Shown: one piece after another, positions 1-29,050 of the stretch
Layout of the letters: every line of letters starts with the position of its first letter
How positions within the stretch are numbered: the stretch's first letter is position 1
Source: a virus
Direction: 5' to 3' (one strand)
Virus record (IMG/VR): IMGVR_UViG_3300043823_000206
Location: 1 to 31,644 of that record
DNA length: 31,644 nt
The notes under the pieces: generated by a model
Database searches by the model: none
What the model was told of the DNA's origin: nothing
The model's input: only the letters and a program-made list of their open reading frames with translations
Made by a program: the position numbers and the translations under genes

Positions 1-3000
1 CAAACCGAGCAGCCATCCAAGGCAGGGAGAAGGTATACGTCTGCAGAGACTGCTGCAGATAGAACGAGGGGCTGAACGTCAGGTACCAGTCGCCTACCAA
101 TCGGTTAATACCATCCAGCATTGAAGGACTACGTATCTGCATGTTCTGGGCTTCGCGTGCCATGAACTCATTGAGGTAGGGATTAGCCTTCGCCCGATTA
201 GTTTTAGCTTCAGTGGCCATGTTGGACAGCGCATCAAGGATGGTGCTGTTATGCTTGAGGTTACCGATAAACCGTGCGTCAGCCATACCCTGCGTGAAGA
301 ACGCACGCATCATATCTTGGTCGTAACCAGCAATACGTTTACGTGTGATTTCCGACTTGCGGGCGCTGAAGTCAGCCAGAGAAGTTAGATAAAGATCTTG
401 TACGATGTTATCCAATGCGTCGTGCATCTTGCGAGCACTGGCATCAAGAGTTTCATCATCTTTGGCCAAATCCAATTTGCGGCGCAGTTCAGCAAAGGCC
501 ATGTGCATGCCGGGGCCAGCGTAAATCTTATCTCGGGCTTCGGAACGTTTGAAAGGCTCTTCAATAGAGAACTTACCAGTCGCAGCCAACTTATCCTTAA
601 TGGCATTGGCTTCACCCATGGTGTCTGCAAATTCGACATGGTAATGGTCACCGCCTTCACGCAGTTTGGCTACTTCTTTCCAGTCGGCGTTCTTCTCAGC
701 TTCCCAGTACTCTTTGGACTTGCCCACCACTACGTATTCACCAAAGCGCTTCAATGGGGCATAGGGGTCAACGGTCTTCAAATTAAGCACCGTTTCAAAC
801 TTCTTGCGGGTTTCATCCTTCTGCTTCTGGATTGCTTCCTTTTCAAAGTCCGTGGCGTTGGCGAGTTTATCCGCATACAGGCTATCAATGTACTCGGTAA
901 TGGCAGCCTTCTTCGCTTCCAATGCCCGCTGGCCGTGCTCAAACACACCTTGGATTACATCTCGAGCTTCTTTCGGAAGGGCATTAAATCGCATAGCCAT
1001 AGGCGAAGCTGGGTCCACTGTTACCCCCGGAATACCCGGGTCATACCCCCACTGCTTATTGAACGTGGACTCGCCAATGAAGCGATTAACTTCACGTTTG
1101 ATTGCATCGGGTAAGGCCTCAAACATAGGGCGCAAAGCAGATACCCGAGTTTCAAAGTCTCGGATGGTTTCCCGCTTCAGCTGGTTGGCCTGAATGTAAT
1201 TAGCAACCGACTTCATGTACTTCTTGGCCAGCTGCGCCACGTCTTCAGTCAATAGCAGCCCAAGGCTCTTATCTTTGATCTTGGCAAAGAACGTTTGGGT
1301 AATAGCTCGCACTGGCCCTTGCAGCACCGGAGGCAGCTTGGAGATGTTGGACGGCGCAGTTGCTACATAGTTATCAAGATCTTTGTTTAGGGGTTCAACG
1401 GTAGAAACCTGTTGATATTTACTTTGGCCTTCTTGTAGCATACGATCAGTTACAAATTTGCCGTCACCTTTTTGCAGGCTGTCCAAGGCGGCTAGTACAG
1501 GGGCATCGGATTGCATACCAAACAGGCTTTTAACCTTTTGCCCCAAGTCTCCGAGCCATTGTTTCAAGCGCCCTAGTACAGTATCAGGCACATTAAATTT
1601 ACCCTGCATAATACGGGCGGCATTTTCAGCCCAGAACTCCGAGGGAGAGGTATGCTGATATGCACTGATATCCACAGCACCGTCCTTCAGCGCATCTGTG
1701 GCTGCTTTCATCACGGCTTCGCCGCCGTTACCCGTATGATAGCCCATCACGTTCTTATAGAATTGTATGGCTGCAGCGTTATTCTCCGCTTTAGCCTTTT
1801 TATACGCAGCCAAGGTAGAACGCACCCATTCTTTGGTAATCGCTGCCCGGATAGGTTCCGGCATCATACGTTCCAGATGGTGCATGATTTCATGGATGGC
1901 TGTGTTACTACGTTCACTGCCTTTGAATAGCGTTACTATACGGGCCGAAGGATTATAGGTTCCCGATACACCTCCTTGTTTGGTTTCCCTGATGGAGATA
2001 CCCAATTCCTCTGCTAAGTGCGGATTTTTTGACAGAAACCAATCCGCAAGATCTGCACCTTCGGCGGAAATTTCTCCCCGTCGTTTAGCTTCTAACAGCC
2101 GCTGACGAACATAGTCTGCCCCTCGGGTACGGCCTTTGTATTCTTTGCGAGATTCAGCTTCTTGTGCGGCTTTATGCGCTTCTGAGATATGCTCTACAGT
2201 TTGCTCTGCATTTAGCTTACCGGATTCAAAACGGCGAAGGGCTGTGCCTACAGCGCGTTTTACCGAAGGGACTTTTTCAGCTGCATCGCGTAAAGAGGAC
2301 CCGTATGGAGCTACCTGCTCATATCCTTCATAATCTGCCCCCCTACCTTCTTTCATATCCTGTTTAGTCTGCGCATCAAGGGTATCTTCTTTTGCTTTAG
2401 GGGGGAGTTCTTCAAGGCGTGCAGCTTTGCTGCGACGGGCAGCACCCGCCAACTCTGCCTGTACTTGCGCGATATCTTCTGGGCGGCCGCTGTCCAATAA
2501 GTTATACATGCGGGAAGCATCATCAAGCTCGATCGCACCACGATCCATTGCGGCGTCAATGATAGGGCGCAAGTGGTCTCCGGGGCCTGTAGGGGCAGCT
2601 TCGGGTGCAGGTTCTTCCGGTAATTTCTCTGCAGGGGCTTCTTCTGTGGGCATTTCTGCCGATGTGGCAGGCGCTTGTTCTTCAGTAGGCACGGGGGTTT
2701 CAGCCTTTTCAGGCTCGATTTTTGCCGATGGCTTTGCCGGTTTTTGTAGGGCTTCTTTGGTCACACCACCACGGGGACCAAACATTTCCCCTTGGCCGGA
2801 AGGTATAGCGGTAGTAGGTTCTTCGGCTTCAATACCCGCACGAGGGCCAGCAGCTTCAGGGAATAGTTCGCCTTGCGTGCCGGGTTCTACTGGAGCGTTG
2901 ACATCGCCTTCTCTTGCTCCAACCCTATCAGGAGCTGCTGCAGGTGGTACCACTCCTCTTGCTTCAGGTGATTCAAGTCCGGGGGTGGCTCCGAGTGGCT

Positions 3001-4507
3001 CGGTCCCGCTAGGTACAGGAACGCGCTCTCCACTTGCTTCAACGTTAGGTGCAGTTCTTGGTGTTCCACGGCTATCTCCTTGCAATGCTTCTGGAGTAAC
3101 CCCGCCTCGGGGGCCAAACATTTCCTTCTGATTCACATTATACAGACGTGATCCGGCCAGATCATGCACGGCCTGCTTTACGTTGCCGGGGATCAATCCA
3201 TTATTCCGCACGGCTGCCAAGGTTCTAGCAACAGCATCAGCATGTTTAGGGTTCGCCAGATCTTTACCCACCAACTGTTTGAAAAGCCCCGCTTCAGGAG
3301 GTAACCCCGTTTGTGCGAGTGCCTCGTGGGAGATTGTTGTGGGCTCAGTAAAGGCAGCGGGGCCATGCGCTTCAGGGGGTACCGGTGCGGTGGGGAATAA
3401 CTCCCCTTGGGTTCCAGCAGGGCCTTCTGCAAATTGGGGGGCTTCGGCAGCAGCTTTTTGTTGCTCTTCTAAGTATTTGCTATGTGCAGCGTCAATAGCT
3501 TGTACGTTCTTAGCGTGTGTACCAGACACAAATTCATGCCCCGCACCAAAAAGCAAAGCCGGAGCAATCCCACCTGCTAGCTGTTCCTTGTATGACTGTA
3601 CTGCCTCGGGGGACATAACATCTTGCCCGGCCTGTGCCCGGCGTAGTGCCTCATCACCCAAGCCCATGGAAGCCAAACCAGCGTAATTGGAACCAATGCT
3701 TTTCAGATACGGCGCGAACTTTGAACCGAGGGCATCAACTGCAGCCTCATGGCTGATTGCACCTTTGCCTACTTGCTCGGTAAGATCTTTTACAGTGGAA
3801 CCAAATGCGCCACGAATACCTTTGGGGATAAAACCCGCGACAGGAATACCGAATCTATCCAACGCAGTTTGGCCAATACCCGCAGCGATGGCTGCGCCGG
3901 TATCTACCGGTTGGCCGGGGTTTACTTGTTGTTGGTATGCAACGTTTTCACCAACATTGGAAGGGAGATCAGCAGCGCCAAATCCGGCTACGCTCGCGAC
4001 ATTTTTGACCCGTGCAGCAGTATTAGCAGCAGCCAGAGTTTCAGCAATTCCAGCACCAGCGGCTACTTCAGGAAGGGCTAGCGGGGCCAGAGCTGCTGCA
4101 GCAGCACCACCCACCATTGGGGCGGCATATCGGGCCAAGCCACCTGAGACGGGTTCGCCTACATAATGTTCAAATGCGGCGCCAAGCCCGGGAAGAATTC
4201 CACGATCAAACGCACGGCTAACATCTTTTTCAGATGTCGGTGCATACGCAGCTTCGGCTTCAGCAGCATTTGCAGCCCCCCGTTGCTTGAGACCTTCACT
4301 ACCCAGCATCTCGCCCAATCCGCTTTCAGCAGAGCCCCACCAACCTTGAAGGCCCGCCTTGAACGCATTAACCATCCCATGCTTATCTGGTCCGGGGATT
4401 TCAAAATCATACTTGTCGGCCAACTGCGTCAGTTGCGAATGGAACTCTTGAGGAGACAAAGAGTCGTTAAATTCTACAAGCCCCAACTTGGGGAGGTTTA
4501 CAATCAT
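1..4507 (-). CDS. Giant polyvalent ejection-type virion protein with zincin motif (3' end cut off)
   Basis: The frame is open from ATG at 4507 (AGGTGA five bases upstream) to the left edge, giving 1502 residues with no stop, so the C-terminus is missing. Residues 1-100 are mixed. Residues 100-340 are rich in Ala and Gly with amphipathic or hydrophobic stretches such as GGAAAAALAPLALPEV near 133, as in proteins that insert into membranes during DNA ejection. Residues 350-700 are Pro/Glu/Ala-rich linker carrying four Q[GK]E[LM]F motifs (Q367, Q460, Q545, Q572) and two FGPRGGVT[PK]EALQ copies. At 872-876 stands HEIMH, a perfect HExxH zinc-protease motif; SEFWAENAAR (E957 or E961) could hold the third ligand. 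The remainder is helical, and its end (WYLTFSPSFYL..SLQTYTFSLPWM) resembles a segment common in large polyvalent phage proteins. It is last in the ejection block, 22 bases after the preceding gene. The virion-ejected role is inferred; the motif is seen directly. Confidence 0.85.
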   Translation of the reverse strand, partial: MIVNLPKLGLVEFNDSLSPQEFHSQLTQLADKYDFEIPGPDKHGMVNAFKAGLQGWWGSAESGLGEMLGSEGLKQRGAANAAEAEAAYAPTSEKDVSRAFDRGILPGLGAAFEHYVGEPVSGGLARYAAPMVGGAAAAALAPLALPEVAAGAGIAETLAAANTAARVKNVASVAGFGAADLPSNVGENVAYQQQVNPGQPVDTGAAIAAGIGQTALDRFGIPVAGFIPKGIRGAFGSTVKDLTEQVGKGAISHEAAVDALGSKFAPYLKSIGSNYAGLASMGLGDEALRRAQAGQDVMSPEAVQSYKEQLAGGIAPALLFGAGHEFVSGTHAKNVQAIDAAHSKYLEEQQKAAAEAPQFAEGPAGTQGELFPTAPVPPEAHGPAAFTEPTTISHEALAQTGLPPEAGLFKQLVGKDLANPKHADAVARTLAAVRNNGLIPGNVKQAVHDLAGSRLYNVNQKEMFGPRGGVTPEALQGDSRGTPRTAPNVEASGERVPVPSGTEPLGATPGLESPEARGVVPPAAAPDRVGAREGDVNAPVEPGTQGELFPEAAGPRAGIEAEEPTTAIPSGQGEMFGPRGGVTKEALQKPAKPSAKIEPEKAETPVPTEEQAPATSAEMPTEEAPAEKLPEEPAPEAAPTGPGDHLRPIIDAAMDRGAIELDDASRMYNLLDSGRPEDIAQVQAELAGAARRSKAARLEELPPKAKEDTLDAQTKQDMKEGRGADYEGYEQVAPYGSSLRDAAEKVPSVKRAVGTALRRFESGKLNAEQTVEHISEAHKAAQEAESRKEYKGRTRGADYVRQRLLEAKRRGEISAEGADLADWFLSKNPHLAEELGISIRETKQGGVSGTYNPSARIVTLFKGSERSNTAIHEIMHHLERMMPEPIRAAITKEWVRSTLAAYKKAKAENNAAAIQFYKNVMGYHTGNGGEAVMKAATDALKDGAVDISAYQHTSPSEFWAENAARIMQGKFNVPDTVLGRLKQWLGDLGQKVKSLFGMQSDAPVLAALDSLQKGDGKFVTDRMLQEGQSKYQQVSTVEPLNKDLDNYVATAPSNISKLPPVLQGPVRAITQTFFAKIKDKSLGLLLTEDVAQLAKKYMKSVANYIQANQLKRETIRDFETRVSALRPMFEALPDAIKREVNRFIGESTFNKQWGYDPGIPGVTVDPASPMAMRFNALPKEARDVIQGVFEHGQRALEAKKAAITEYIDSLYADKLANATDFEKEAIQKQKDETRKKFETVLNLKTVDPYAPLKRFGEYVVVGKSKEYWEAEKNADWKEVAKLREGGDHYHVEFADTMGEANAIKDKLAATGKFSIEEPFKRSEARDKIYAGPGMHMAFAELRRKLDLAKDDETLDASARKMHDALDNIVQDLYLTSLADFSARKSEITRKRIAGYDQDMMRAFFTQGMADARFIGNLKHNSTILDALSNMATEAKTNRAKANPYLNEFMAREAQNMQIRSPSMLDGINRLVGDWYLTFSPSFYLQQSLQTYTFSLPWMAARF

Positions 4508-4529: not shown

Positions 4530-6704
4530 TTATTTGTTCGGGTTAAGTAATGTACCTGCCTGCGAGACTCCGGGGGCATTTCCAGACTGCCCCAATACGC
4601 TTAACATATTTGCACGCCATGCAGCAAACTCATTTGTCATGTGGCGCTTAGCTGCGGCATCATCGAGTTTATTATCAGCAGCGTATTTTTGTGCGGCTGC
4701 AAATGCGGGCGTATTCTGGAAATCCTTGTAATCATTACGGAGATTAACTTCTTCTTTATCCCGTTGTGCCTGAAGGGCGAGTTGTGTTTTCTCTGCCAGC
4801 CCCTGTGCGGCAGCATCAGCTGCATGCCGTTTTTGGGCCAAAAGGTCCTCGCGGTATTGCAACTGGCCAAGAACCTGAGCCATGTGGCCTTGACGAAGAA
4901 GATCTGCACGTTCAGCACCCATAAGAAGCTGCCCAATACCCTGTTCTTGTTTATCCGCGGCTTGCTGCAGAGCGCCATAGGTACCCACACCTTGAGTAAT
5001 ACCGGCCCCAATGTTGGGGGCAGCAAAGTTAGACCGCCCCATCATACCAGCACCAGCGTTCATAAGCGCCAACCAAGGTGCCATCTTCTGTTGTTCAGCC
5101 AGTTGTGATTTTTGTCGATCAAGGCTATCCATAAATTCTTGGCTATATGGGGATTCTTGGTTCAACATGTCCTTGTAGTAGGACATCAACTTGTCAGCAT
5201 CTGATTGGGGTTGTGCGTTACCACCTAACCCAGCAAGGTATGCGGGAAGTTGATCGGTAGGAATCTGTGCGCCACCGCCAAGATCCGTAATACCCGTGGG
5301 AGTAGCAGGAGCTACAGGAGCTACAGGAGCTACAGGAGCTACGGGGGGTTTAGCAGCGGCAGCAGCACGCTGTGCCTTAACATCTTGCATCGCTTGCAGC
5401 GACGTGTAATCCTGCGGCTGTTTAATAGGACCTTCCTCTGCTGTGGGCGGAGAAGAAGTAAAATAAGGAGCGACGTTACCCTGCAGCCAGCTAGATAGGT
5501 CGTTAACCCACCCGCCATTCTCAAATCGGATTGCGCCACCAGCAGCCATACCAGCACCGGTAACCTTGCTCAAAGGAACAACGCCTTCTTGGCGAATAAT
5601 GGCATGGCGTAGTGTAGCGATACCTTCCGGCGTAGTTGGGATACGATCACCAGCACCGATGTTCAGGGAGTTCGATACGTTCTTGATGTATGAATGTACG
5701 GTTGAATCTGGGTTGTCGCCGCCCTTACTCTTGGGGGGTGCGTAAGTTTCAATGAACGAACGGGGGGTATTCACCCCGCGATTAAGTTTTGCCATGATAT
5801 CGTGGTCAAGCGCAGCCACACCAGACTGCATATCCTTGAACAAAGCAAAGCCTTTTTTATCCGTGCCGACTTGGCCGGGATAGGTAAATCCAGTAGGACG
5901 CAGATTACCTACATTATGCTTACGAGCAGTCTTGTCATCTACACTGACTTGATTATCGGCAGTGTAGGTAGTGGGGGTCCCGCTCATAGACGCAGTATCC
6001 ATATCTGATTCAGGTAGCGTCTGTACTTGCTGCTGTGGGGCATAAAACTTGGCTTGCATAGCCCGTTCAGCATTGGTTAGCCCACCATATTCAGCAGGAT
6101 CGGACTTGGATGGGTCGTATTCAGGGTCCTCTTGGGAGTCACCACCAGCAGCAAACGCAACGATACCGCCCGGGGCATAGCCTTGAGAAGGGAGATTACT
6201 TTGGGCAGTCTCAATGCCTTGCGGAGCTTGTTGGGGGGCCTGCTGCGGAGCTTGTTGTGGAGCAGCTTGTTGCGGCATAGCCATCTGCGGTGCTTGTTGG
6301 GGCATACCTTGGGGCTGGGGCTGGCCACGACCTTCCAGTTGGGCTTTGATTGACTGCAGGGCCTGCAGTTGCTTTACTTGTTCAGCCAGCTTGGGGATAC
6401 CAATATAGGATGGGATCTTGCCATCCTGTACACCGTCCTTAATCTGTACAACTTCTTCGGACAAGGACTTAATCTTATGGTCCAGCGACACTAACGGATC
6501 CATGGCTTGGTCAGCACCCTGCATCACGCTATCAGCTACTGTACCACCGGGAGGGGGAGGGGTTTGCGCACCGGAACCCGCAGTAGAATTGGCGCTGTTG
6601 ACCAGACTAGCCAGCCCAGCAGGAAGCACGCCATCTTTTACAGACTGCCCGATCTGGTTGGGGGACATTTTGCTGGCAGTGTCCAGCATGCTCAAAGGAT
6701 TCAT
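4530..6704 (-). CDS. Internal/ejection virion protein with muralytic-like domain
   Basis: 724 residues. The start ATG overlaps the preceding stop (ATGA), with GGAG five bases upstream. A helical segment (70-125) is followed by a Gln/Pro/Ala-rich tract of QQAP repeats (133-162), then GYAPGGIVAFAAGG (175-188). Residues 264-374 form a compact domain (HNVGNLRP, GTDKKGFALF, NTPRSFIETYAPP, later STVHSYIKNV) that resembles wall-degrading domains embedded in phage structural proteins. I cannot assign the catalytic residue. A VAP tandem repeat (455-466) leads to a copy of the DLGxGxQIPT motif shared with the 488-residue protein at 8629-10095. The C-terminal third (500-705) is Gln/Ala-rich and helical, with WLALMNAGAGMMG typical of internal virion proteins. 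The role in ejection is inferred from context and composition. Confidence 0.8.
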   Translation of the reverse strand: MNPLSMLDTASKMSPNQIGQSVKDGVLPAGLASLVNSANSTAGSGAQTPPPPGGTVADSVMQGADQAMDPLVSLDHKIKSLSEEVVQIKDGVQDGKIPSYIGIPKLAEQVKQLQALQSIKAQLEGRGQPQPQGMPQQAPQMAMPQQAAPQQAPQQAPQQAPQGIETAQSNLPSQGYAPGGIVAFAAGGDSQEDPEYDPSKSDPAEYGGLTNAERAMQAKFYAPQQQVQTLPESDMDTASMSGTPTTYTADNQVSVDDKTARKHNVGNLRPTGFTYPGQVGTDKKGFALFKDMQSGVAALDHDIMAKLNRGVNTPRSFIETYAPPKSKGGDNPDSTVHSYIKNVSNSLNIGAGDRIPTTPEGIATLRHAIIRQEGVVPLSKVTGAGMAAGGAIRFENGGWVNDLSSWLQGNVAPYFTSSPPTAEEGPIKQPQDYTSLQAMQDVKAQRAAAAAKPPVAPVAPVAPVAPATPTGITDLGGGAQIPTDQLPAYLAGLGGNAQPQSDADKLMSYYKDMLNQESPYSQEFMDSLDRQKSQLAEQQKMAPWLALMNAGAGMMGRSNFAAPNIGAGITQGVGTYGALQQAADKQEQGIGQLLMGAERADLLRQGHMAQVLGQLQYREDLLAQKRHAADAAAQGLAEKTQLALQAQRDKEEVNLRNDYKDFQNTPAFAAAQKYAADNKLDDAAAKRHMTNEFAAWRANMLSVLGQSGNAPGVSQAGTLLNPNK
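5307..5342 (-). repeat. 9-bp tandem repeat encoding (VAP)4
   Basis: Four perfect copies of aggagctac (plus strand) encode Val-Ala-Pro four times inside the muralytic-type virion protein (residues 455-466). The likely role is a flexible or extended linker. Identical codon use in all copies suggests recent slippage expansion. Confidence 0.9.
6219..6308 (-). repeat. QQAP-type low-complexity repeat
   Basis: Residues 133-162 of the 724-residue virion protein consist of imperfect PQQAP/PQQAAP units. The tract separates the N-terminal helical part from the muralytic-like domain and probably acts as an unstructured hinge. Confidence 0.75.
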
Positions 6705-8212
6705 ACTTGCTCCATTTCTATGCCCAACATAGCATAGTTAACGCCTTTATATCCATTAGCCATTGTGGTAACCGCTTCGGGCAAGAACTTCTCAACATCT
6801 TGAGCCATAACACCGCGATAACGACCATACCCGGCAGATGCCTTAAACTCAGGTTTGTACTCAAATTCGTAGAACGGCACCCCTTTAGCAAACGTACCCA
6901 CATGAACGATGTTTTCCTTGGTGCGGACATCAGAAGTTGTGGAGCTAGTGGGATTAGCAGCATTATACATACCCAATCCGGCGATACCGGCGGTTCCCAA
7001 GCCAGCAATAGAAGAGGTAAGGCTGGGGGCGGCTTGCGCGGTGGTTGTGGTTACGTCGGTCATCGGTAAACCGGAGGCCAAGTTCTTCAGGTTCGACAAC
7101 TGCGTCATGGGGTACTGCATGGCAGTTGAATAGTTCTGCATGGCTTGGTTGATGATGTTCTGTTGTTGTTGCTGCTGGGTGCCACCCATCGTGCTCTGGG
7201 TGTTGAGGATGCCTTGTTGAGCAGCCAGTTGACCCGTGCCCAGATTACCCAAAGTGCCTGCAGCAGTGTTACCCAGACCATAACCAGCTTGTGCAGCGTT
7301 AACACCAGACAGCCCAGCTTGTGCACCGGTAATGCCTTGTTGGAGACCTGCGAGACCCAGATTAGCCCCAGAGGTAAGCCCTTGCATACCAGTAGTAGCG
7401 GCACCTTGAGCACCAGTTAGGCCCATTTGAGCAGCGGTCTGCATATTCTGTTGAGCAGTGTTGTACGCAGTGTTATACCCTTGGCCGATGGCTTGCTGGG
7501 CTGCGAGGTTACCCCCCTGCTGAACCAGAGCGTTTTGCAGGGCTTCGCGGCTACCACCAAAGGCGCCAGCAGAAGTAGCAGCTCCCTGTTCAGCAGCAGA
7601 TTGAATACCCGTCTGTTGGCCCAGCAGTTGCAGTTGAGGTGCCAAAGAATTGGCCACGTAGGGGTTCATGAAGTTGGATACGGCACCGGGGTTCTGCGCC
7701 ATTTGCCCGTAAGCCTGCCCAGCCTGAGAGATATTCCCAGCGTAATTTTGCCCTGCACCGGCAACGTTTGCACCGGCCATTTGACCGAGATTTGCTGACT
7801 GAGCGCCATAGCCAGCGCCCATACTGCCATAACCTGTAGCTTGTTGAGCACTCTGCATACCACCCATACCTGCGCCAGTAGCCAAGCCAGTAGCAGCTCC
7901 AAATTGCCCGGGGGTTTGCAGGTTAGCAGCGCCAGTAAATGCCTGTTGTTGCAGTGGGGTAAATCCAGCCACAGAAGAAGCTGCAGCGTTCATGTCATTG
8001 GCAGTCATACCATATTGACCACCGGCCCCGTTTGAAGTGCCGAAGGCGTTATAGGGGTTGACGCCGTTAATCTGGCCCGTAGTGGGGTCTACATTGAATA
8101 CTTGCTGCTGTGCAGCACCCAGCATCGATCCAACATACGGCGCTGCCCAAGGGGATACGTTTGAGTACTGATTCGTTTGTTGTGTGGTACCACCACTTTG
8201 TCCACCGCCCAT
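6701..8212 (-). CDS. Gly/Ala/Gln-rich internal virion protein with short S74-like C-terminus
   Basis: 503 residues; perfect AGGAGG five bases before the ATG. The N-terminus (SPWAAPYVGSMLGAAQQQ, 20-37) and the FTPLQQQAFTGAANLQTPGQF region (84-104) are of a type seen in phage internal or ejection proteins. Residues 105-390 are extremely Gly/Ala/Gln-rich and probably helical. Residues 427-503 start with SDVRTKENI and contain YEFEYKPEF, GVMAQDVEKFLPEAV and GVNYAMLG, matching the peptidase S74 / intramolecular chaperone family. That family trimerises fibres and cleaves itself before the Ser-Asp dyad. Here the domain is only about 77 residues and lacks the usual long C-terminal helix. S427, D428 and K432 are present. 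Whether it cleaves is unknown. It overlaps the next gene by 4 nt. Confidence 0.82.
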   Translation of the reverse strand: MGGGQSGGTTQQTNQYSNVSPWAAPYVGSMLGAAQQQVFNVDPTTGQINGVNPYNAFGTSNGAGGQYGMTANDMNAAASSVAGFTPLQQQAFTGAANLQTPGQFGAATGLATGAGMGGMQSAQQATGYGSMGAGYGAQSANLGQMAGANVAGAGQNYAGNISQAGQAYGQMAQNPGAVSNFMNPYVANSLAPQLQLLGQQTGIQSAAEQGAATSAGAFGGSREALQNALVQQGGNLAAQQAIGQGYNTAYNTAQQNMQTAAQMGLTGAQGAATTGMQGLTSGANLGLAGLQQGITGAQAGLSGVNAAQAGYGLGNTAAGTLGNLGTGQLAAQQGILNTQSTMGGTQQQQQQNIINQAMQNYSTAMQYPMTQLSNLKNLASGLPMTDVTTTTAQAAPSLTSSIAGLGTAGIAGLGMYNAANPTSSTTSDVRTKENIVHVGTFAKGVPFYEFEYKPEFKASAGYGRYRGVMAQDVEKFLPEAVTTMANGYKGVNYAMLGIEMEQV

Positions 8213-8221
8213 AATGGCCTC

Positions 8222-8632
8222 CTAAATCTCGGTCTCAACGACCATATATCGTTCATTAAACCCCATAAGACGCAACATACGCACCATTGAAGGCCGGGCG
8301 CCCGCTTGTATCTTTGTTGCCCCCATGGAGGCCACGATGTTCTTCACTTCCTGTAATGCACCCTTAGTGCATATACCTTTACCCCCAGTGGTAGTAATAA
8401 ACGCCACACGATCGTTGGGATAATTTATGAACGATATTGTCATCGCCCCATGAACTACATTTGCTTCGTCTACAGAAACCAAGAGCAGCCACTGACCCAA
8501 GTTTATGAACATCCGAATCTGGGCCAAATCATAGTCTTCCCCATGGTCTAGCGCCTTCGCCAAAAAGGGGGCTACTTGCGGCCATGCTTTAGCCGTAGAT
8601 TCAGGGGGTACGGGCAGGACTTTGTACGTCAT
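8222..8632 (-). CDS. GNAT-like small phage protein
   Basis: 136 residues, starting with an ATGA overlap on the preceding gene's stop. The pattern fits a GNAT acyltransferase fold: a helical N-terminus (AWPQVAPFLAKALDHG, 16-31), strands around WLLLVSVDE and GAMTISFI, a Gly-containing turn before a helix (TTGGKGICTKGALQEVKNIVASMG), and a closing MLRLMGFNERYMVVET resembling the GF-x(2)-Y end of GNAT domains. The classic acetyl-CoA loop Q/RxxGxG/A is not clear, so activity is doubtful. T7 gene 13 and its relatives are similarly sized GNAT-like proteins lying among internal-virion genes. The same position here suggests a virion assembly role or modification of a structural protein. Confidence 0.65.
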   Translation of the reverse strand: MTYKVLPVPPESTAKAWPQVAPFLAKALDHGEDYDLAQIRMFINLGQWLLLVSVDEANVVHGAMTISFINYPNDRVAFITTTGGKGICTKGALQEVKNIVASMGATKIQAGARPSMVRMLRLMGFNERYMVVETEI

Positions 8633-28141: not shown

Positions 28142-29050
28142 TTAGGCACCTTCGGAACCGAACATTCCGAGGGGATCCGACCAGCCGAAGCTGTAACGTT
28201 CGCGGGACTTATAGCGCACGTTACCGGTGTCGAAGTCACCATCCATAGACTGCTGGAGGGGGACACGAACAAAGTGCTTCATACCGTTGGGTACATCAGT
28301 GGTCAAGTACCAACCATTGGTGTCGGTCAAGAAGTGGTTAATGGTATACCCTTCAGGAATCGAACCGTTGTTCTTGATTGCATTGATGTCGTTGTCGTTG
28401 GTACCAACACGCAGTTCGGTTTCCAGCAAACGAGTTGCCACGAATTGCAGTGCGGGGGGAACGATCAACTTACGGGGCTTGGCAGCGATCAGCAGGCTGC
28501 GTTCATCAGTCCACAGCGAGATCTGAATAACGGCGGCTTCCAAAGAAGTTTCGTTCAGATCAGCGGGGGTTGAGGGAACGTTGCTGTTGGTACCACCAGA
28601 CACCAACGGGTGAGCGTTGGAGAACAGAGGCACACCATCACCACCGTTGTAGCCGGAAGTGAAACCGTTGTTGATAACGGCGGCAGCCTTAACCTGCTTG
28701 GTATAAGCCATGGAACGGGCCAGCGCTTTGGTATAACGAGCCGACAAAGAGTCGTACAGGTTATCTTCGATCGCTTCTTCGGTCAGGGAGAAACCCTGAG
28801 CGATAGTTTCATGGTTGTATCGAGCGGTCCATGCTTCTTGACCGTTGTCATAAGCAATAGGTGCACCTTCATTCTTAACAGGGGCAGCGCTAAAGCCGGA
28901 CAGCTTGGTTTCTTCTTCAAAGCTACGTTCCGAGGTTTCGGTTTCGTAGATTTCCTTGTGCTCTTCGCCGTACTTGGCGTACTCCAGACCAAACAAAGCG
29001 TTCAGGCCGGGGAGCAATTCCTTGAGCAGTTGTGCGCGTGAAATAGCCAT
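28142..29050 (-). CDS. Major capsid protein (HK97 fold, Mu gpT-like)
   Basis: 302 residues; AAGGAG seven bases before the ATG. The N-terminal helix (MAISRAQLLKELLPGLNALF), the long acidic arm-like region (EIYETETSERSFEEETKLSG), GAPIAYDNGQEAWTARYNHE, TIAQGFSLTEEAIEDNLYD, DGVPLFSNAHPLVSGG and KPRKLIVPPALQFVATRLLE match the Mu gpT-like family of HK97-fold capsid proteins. The C-terminus (RYSFGWSDPLGMFGSEGA) is also typical. It forms the icosahedral shell, and the scaffold, GroES-like and decoration genes lie directly upstream in the same operon. A strong terminator follows it, so its message can be made in excess over the tail genes. Confidence 0.92.
   Translation of the reverse strand: MAISRAQLLKELLPGLNALFGLEYAKYGEEHKEIYETETSERSFEEETKLSGFSAAPVKNEGAPIAYDNGQEAWTARYNHETIAQGFSLTEEAIEDNLYDSLSARYTKALARSMAYTKQVKAAAVINNGFTSGYNGGDGVPLFSNAHPLVSGGTNSNVPSTPADLNETSLEAAVIQISLWTDERSLLIAAKPRKLIVPPALQFVATRLLETELRVGTNDNDINAIKNNGSIPEGYTINHFLTDTNGWYLTTDVPNGMKHFVRVPLQQSMDGDFDTGNVRYKSRERYSFGWSDPLGMFGSEGA

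Follow-up and report, generated by a model that had tools for sequence, protein, structure and literature searches.

A putative zincin cassette within a giant polyvalent-type protein of an environmental phage

The virion gene module and the giant reading frame

The window, i.e., the whole stretch of DNA analysed, is the complete IMG/VR record IMGVR_UViG_3300043823_000206 and comprises 31,644 bases. Its major capsid protein (28142-29050, minus strand) is 62-72% identical to the proteins of Pag-Yong1, DSL-LC04 and HTVC023P/HTVC027P, the value being 72% for Planktothrix phage Pag-Yong1 and 63-64% for DSL-LC04 and HTVC023P. The genomes of Pag-Yong1, phage DSL-LC04 and the Pelagibacter phages HTVC023P/HTVC027P measure ~58-65 kb, and the window probably represents about half a genome. 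A giant polyvalent-type protein is encoded at its edge (2..4507, minus strand), where 1502 codons are open from an ATG (4507 to 2) and no stop occurs in the window. Given that the window is the whole record, the protein is incomplete: its N-terminal 1502 aa are present and the 3' end lies beyond the record.

The initial annotation had put the gene among internal virion genes; within the record it closes the virion module and lies next but one to a match to the phrog_4287 'DNA ejection protein' (6701..8212, minus strand; 4.4e-23). The product of the latter is partly of low complexity and carries a C-terminal Peptidase_S74 chaperone domain, which was the only part found by tblastn. A small neighbouring gene (8222-8632, minus strand) looked GNAT-like by eye, with no Pfam match. 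In Pag-Yong1 the virion module also ends in a 'large polyvalent protein', but the HExxH motifs of that phage are different ones and were not matched by the profile of the window clade. Similarly, gp69 of Burkholderia phage JC1 (4,515 aa) carries a different HExxH domain at the corresponding position; this protein was detected in purified virions by mass spectrometry with 51 unique peptides (PMC9144972). On the basis of gene position and this analogue, it is reasonable to infer that the window protein resides in the virion and is ejected. The zincin was rejected as a marker of the basic particle, as DSL-LC04 and HTVC023P had no HExxH in the large proteins examined.

Regarding the giant protein itself, residues 100-345 (3473..4210, minus strand) consist of 21% Ala and 14% Gly, in line with the Ala/Gly-rich N-terminus described by the initial annotation. 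Its description as membrane-active was not supported, since the best 19-residue Kyte-Doolittle mean was 1.52, under the usual transmembrane threshold. Further along, Q(G/K)E(L/M)F occurs four times within residues ~360-600 (2708-3430, minus strand), close to positions 367, 460, 545 and 572, and two of the copies sit in a repeated EMFGPRGGVT.EALQ. The copies resemble the Qxx(L/M)F sliding-clamp-binding motif; four copies were obtained in 0 of 20,000 shuffles, and a single relative had the QGELF copy in common with the window protein.

The C-terminal part of the available sequence matches the giant proteins phrog_11358 (2.9e-10) and phrog_30335. It includes PLKRFG at residues 1251-1256 (740..757, minus strand), the namesake motif of the 'PLxRFG proteins', and is co-linear in its similarity with POI1126 and Pavtok, as found in DarB-like/PLxRFG giants. 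In relatives having PLxRFG this motif lies ~680-850 residues from the protein end, so that the complete window protein may be expected to reach ~1,950-2,100 aa, with ~450-600 aa beyond the record end.

A conserved HExxH domain and its predicted fold

The translation of the reading frame places HEIMH at residues 872-876 (1880..1894, minus strand) and SEFWAENAAR at residues 956-965, with E957 and E961 at +81 and +85 from H876, exactly as initially annotated. Because HExxH arises in 3.5% of composition shuffles of the window protein, the motif by itself is weak evidence, and a chance occurrence devoid of function had to be considered. This explanation has a negligible probability and is refuted by conservation: H872, E873, H876, H877, E879, Y950, S956, E957 and W959 are invariant in 70 divergent sequences that are 31-47% identical to the window, which adds a second invariant motif to the first, and a fold is predicted around them. 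As the relatives were collected via patterns on either side of the domain, circularity was checked by counting each side where its own search pattern was absent. HExxH was kept in all 23 domains lacking the HExxH-side pattern and SE in all 11 lacking the SEFWAVN-side pattern, so the conservation is not merely a search artefact. The invariance thus confirms HEIMH, at the level of sequence, as a real motif in a conserved domain.

By this pattern, H872 and H876 would be metal ligands and E873 the general base. The candidate for the third ligand is E957 (1637..1639, minus strand) in SEFWA (956-960) and not E961, because the former is invariant (70/70) whereas the position of the latter is occupied by Val in nearly all of the 70 relatives. 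Seven residues before E957, the invariant Y950 (1658..1660, minus strand; 70/70) is a possible transition-state residue. Conservation across 63 non-redundant giant proteins climbs sharply at residue ~742 and drops at ~1026, with 15-residue means of 0.24-0.78 within the domain and mostly 0.1-0.3 outside, which delimits a conserved zincin domain at residues 742-1026 (1430..2284, minus strand); the set was gathered by zincin similarity, and the standing of the zincin as its most conserved part is partly due to this selection. A SHOCT-like helical hairpin may open the zincin cassette at residues ~746-775 (2183..2272, minus strand), as suggested by weak Pfam matches to DUF1707/SHOCT, which 2-3 of the 12 members gave with a best E of 0.02-0.03.

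The AlphaFold2 model of the window domain, built on the alignment of 70 sequences, had a mean pLDDT of 87.8, with ~89-98 in the core blocks. Its elements follow the order of helices, strands 836-840, 849-852 and 857-861, the HExxH helix 869-881, a helical insert and helix 955-971 with E957, while the linker after the domain, which is gap-rich in the alignment, fell below pLDDT 50. The minimal zincin core of polyvalent proteins has been described as a three-stranded sheet, an HExxH helix and a later helix with Glu (PMC5512222), and the predicted layout is the same. At the level of secondary structure the model also bears out the site proposed in the initial annotation, with the HExxH residues on one helix and the third-ligand Glu on another. 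A Foldseek search against PDB returned zincins as the top 15 matches and most of the others shown, including anthrax lethal factor, selecase, jannalysin, IrrE and CapP, although the best E was 0.07 and none was below 0.001. Among viral models the best match was an uncharacterised phage protein (9e-19), followed by weak matches to polyvalent, SprT and IrrE proteins. In a replicate headed by the divergent relative L096, AlphaFold retained the two key helices without forming the sheet (pLDDT ~50 there), and Foldseek with this model found no zincin; the fold call thus depends on one good model and the sequence pattern. A metalloenzyme of another chemistry appears very improbable. HExxH is common to other enzyme types, and α-ketoglutarate-dependent HExxH enzymes were mentioned for N4 (PMC12633501), yet a Glu from a later helix is the candidate third ligand, and the structures matched in PDB are metallopeptidases and their relatives, such as lethal factor, selecase/jannalysin and IrrE.

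Searches of Pfam and NCBIfam with the window protein or its zincin gave no zincin at or near cut-off, and a sequence search of PDB with either found no family for the domain, which is common in phages yet has no Pfam or NCBIfam model. A match to a catalogued family is not part of the published fold definition of the zincin-like MPTases found in polyvalent phage proteins by Iyer et al. (2017, PMC5512222), whose HExxH helix, Glu on a later helix and three-stranded sheet the window domain has in its predicted form. The C1 zincin of the N4 virion RNA polymerase (vRNAP) likewise carries HExxH followed by EFMAW ~80 residues on, but the profile match to the window clade was weak (66% versus 0.2% for the reversed control) and spanned just 45 columns ending at HExxH. 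The N4 domain has neither the HHLERMMP and SEFWAVN signatures nor the Tyr seven residues before Glu, and the window protein shows no polymerase. As regards other known systems, homology to the JC1-type zincin (HEAFH) was not supported (profile match 0.8%), and the HExxH region of the phrog_87 metallo-protease aligned with E=0.0014 over only 48 residues and in just two of 12 members. Too few loci were obtained when the N4 and POI1126 zincins were used as single sequences to find their relatives.

The domain could also be a structural or packaging element that keeps the metal site with little or no proteolysis. Such a role is favoured by the N4 vRNAP, in which the zincin-holding region is required for encapsidation though the protein is packaged uncut (PMC5512222) and in which the role of the C-terminal region is still unknown (PMC12633501). 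Nevertheless, we consider it improbable: the general-base Glu873 is invariant besides the ligands, although a metal site serving structure alone could do without it, and the two capsid relatives devoid of HExxH in the large proteins examined suggest that the domain is unneeded for such a particle.

Domain partners, cassette borders and distribution

A first scan found relatives on 10 viral contigs, and a scan with the alignment as query extended them to 287 IMG/VR contigs and to 10 contigs from assemblies of bacterial genomes. Among phage isolates, the Erwinia phages Stean, Pavtok and PEp14 match at ~35%, and Pavtok and PEp14 gp27, which are DarB-like/PLxRFG proteins, hold the same zincin domain as the window (E about 1e-92), followed by LPD39. 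The relatives range from 525 to 5,010 aa. According to Pfam, LPD38 is present in seven of them, LPD39 in Pavtok, POI1126 and two others, LPD23 in two (one of which also carries LPD39), ddrB-ParB in one, ART-PolyVal in two (one of which also carries LPD38) and Eco57I/SNF2/transglycosylase in Pavtok. As judged from these assignments, the partner domains are modules described for polyvalent proteins, whose published zincins are likewise fused to LPD, ART, ParB and helicase domains (PMC5512222). In the 1502 aa of the window protein only the zincin, the PLKRFG region and the C-terminal similarity to giant phrogs are recognisable; Pfam found no DNA methylase + SNF2-type helicase module there. The DarB-like/PLxRFG giants differ in having ~4,500-5,000 aa and methylase/helicase modules, with an additional N-terminal transglycosylase in Pavtok. 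The view that this is a giant protein of the polyvalent class with a zincin domain was upheld by the invariant residues, the predicted layout and the LPD/ART/ParB fusions of the relatives, and the giant protein is supported as one more member of the known class of polyvalent virion proteins.

Some features of the relatives were observed in passing. At least two HExxH motifs occur in 15 of 83 relatives, and one protein of 3,162 aa has four, at 0, +299, +574 and +996 from the first. The N-termini of 25 of 74 relatives share a short hairpin-helix module, MP..PDG..Y.IE.PEG, which was found only N-terminally (no fragment among 1,402 internal ones exceeded that score). This module is a candidate packaging tag, the analogue being the initial 30 residues of P1 DarB (PMC9024508). 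No such tag is claimed for the window protein, which scores only 2 bits.

What is new here is that the points at which similarity stops between related proteins mark out the zincin as an exchangeable cassette with sharp borders, corresponding to residues ~717-1042 of the window protein (1382..2359, minus strand; -155 to +170 around H872). Among the 66 relatives that are complete, the stretch following HExxH hardly varies in length (median 1,100, middle half 1,066-1,133), and the stretch preceding it spans anything between 153 and 3,874. Among 140 pairs with an identity of 50% or more across the zincin, a few of which include proteins cut by a contig end, 57 lost similarity early, with no homology downstream. 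The break point fell 148-216 residues past HExxH in 55 of these, and the remaining two ended at +20 owing to an in-frame stop in L102. For example, the identity between L070 and L076 is 93% as far as +168 and they are unrelated beyond, while the 82% identity between L083 and L091 is confined to -155 to +148. The modules behind the junction include an LPD module of ~1,100 aa, a coiled coil of ~190 aa ending in NRGCD, a second HExxH domain that ends likewise, and an ART. The common tail ...LQK.NRGCD was seen in the alternative C-termini of eight relatives, whether the coiled coil or the second HExxH domain precedes it.

Whole-genome scans in two bacterial orders, covering 399 and 201 genomes, matched only three genomes already known to hold the domain, which we therefore regard as essentially viral, and no solo zincin copy was seen in these ~600 genomes. 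In L102, which derives from a bacterial assembly (JADCGX010000197.1, 7522-13560), an in-frame TAG lies within the zincin between HExxH and SEFWA and reflects either a decayed gene or a sequencing error. One locus considered as a naturally separate zincin gene was dropped, its start being ambiguous and its overlapping frames suggesting a frameshift or deletion.

These observations bear on the proposal of the initial annotation that the protein, if ejected, would deliver a protease into the host at the moment of infection. The zincin would then be an injected effector cleaving a host protein, e.g., one of defence or regulation. Published proposals permit such a use of polyvalent zincins (PMC5512222), and the cargo domains beside the zincin in relatives, namely ART-PolyVal and methylase/helicase, are effector-like. 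The scanned bacterial genomes, by comparison, held no free-standing copy, and nothing points to a host substrate. The zincin is the best-conserved portion of the set, in part because the loci were chosen by zincin similarity, whereas effectors directed against hosts tend to diverge the fastest. Overall, we find an effector role unlikely, though less so than a structural one.

A possible role in processing the carrier protein

Taken together, the conserved active site, the bounded cassette, the changing neighbours and the flexible linker would lead one to expect a processing peptidase. We propose that residues ~742-1026 form a gluzincin-like site, with H872, H876 and E957 as putative ligands and E873 as putative general base, mid-way in a giant polyvalent protein, itself a probable component of the virion. 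The domain would bind metal, presumably zinc, would probably be active, and would cut near the cassette borders, either in its own chain or in partner virion proteins. Such cleavage, either while the particle matures or once the protein has been ejected, would detach the C-terminal module from the N-terminal cargo, which is variable. For this reading as a whole, the most likely of those considered, we judge the arguments on the two sides to be about evenly balanced. An exchangeable cassette with such sharp borders is more in keeping with cleavage of the carrier or of virion partners than with a free protease aimed at the host, and the absence of solo copies in ~600 bacterial genomes also counts in its favour. 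Against it, modules are also exchanged at ordinary domain borders, with no protease needed, and the L096 model showed neither the sheet nor a zincin match. As for precedents, P1 DdrB is processed before packaging and self-cleavage has been proposed for it, a role extended on that basis to polyvalent proteins at large (PMC5512222), while the zincin-bearing N4 vRNAP is packaged uncut (PMC5512222), which counts against self-processing.

A more specific and more doubtful suggestion is that the zincin constitutes a portable self-cleavage cassette, a unit of ~325 aa that may move between giant virion proteins and free whichever module is plugged in behind it. Its clade is possibly undescribed and would either add to or fall within the 12 published clades of polyvalent zincins (PMC5512222). 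With similar reserve, the cassette may be likened to the pre-toxin peptidases of bacterial polymorphic toxins. Whether the zincins of virion proteins cut their carrier protein or host targets has been an open question since polyvalent proteins were described in 2017. The sharp borders, the swappable neighbours and the availability of hundreds of environmental copies together with the isolates Pavtok and PEp14 make it testable with a single E-to-A mutant. If true, the portable cassette would provide environmental phages with a plug-and-play delivery protein.
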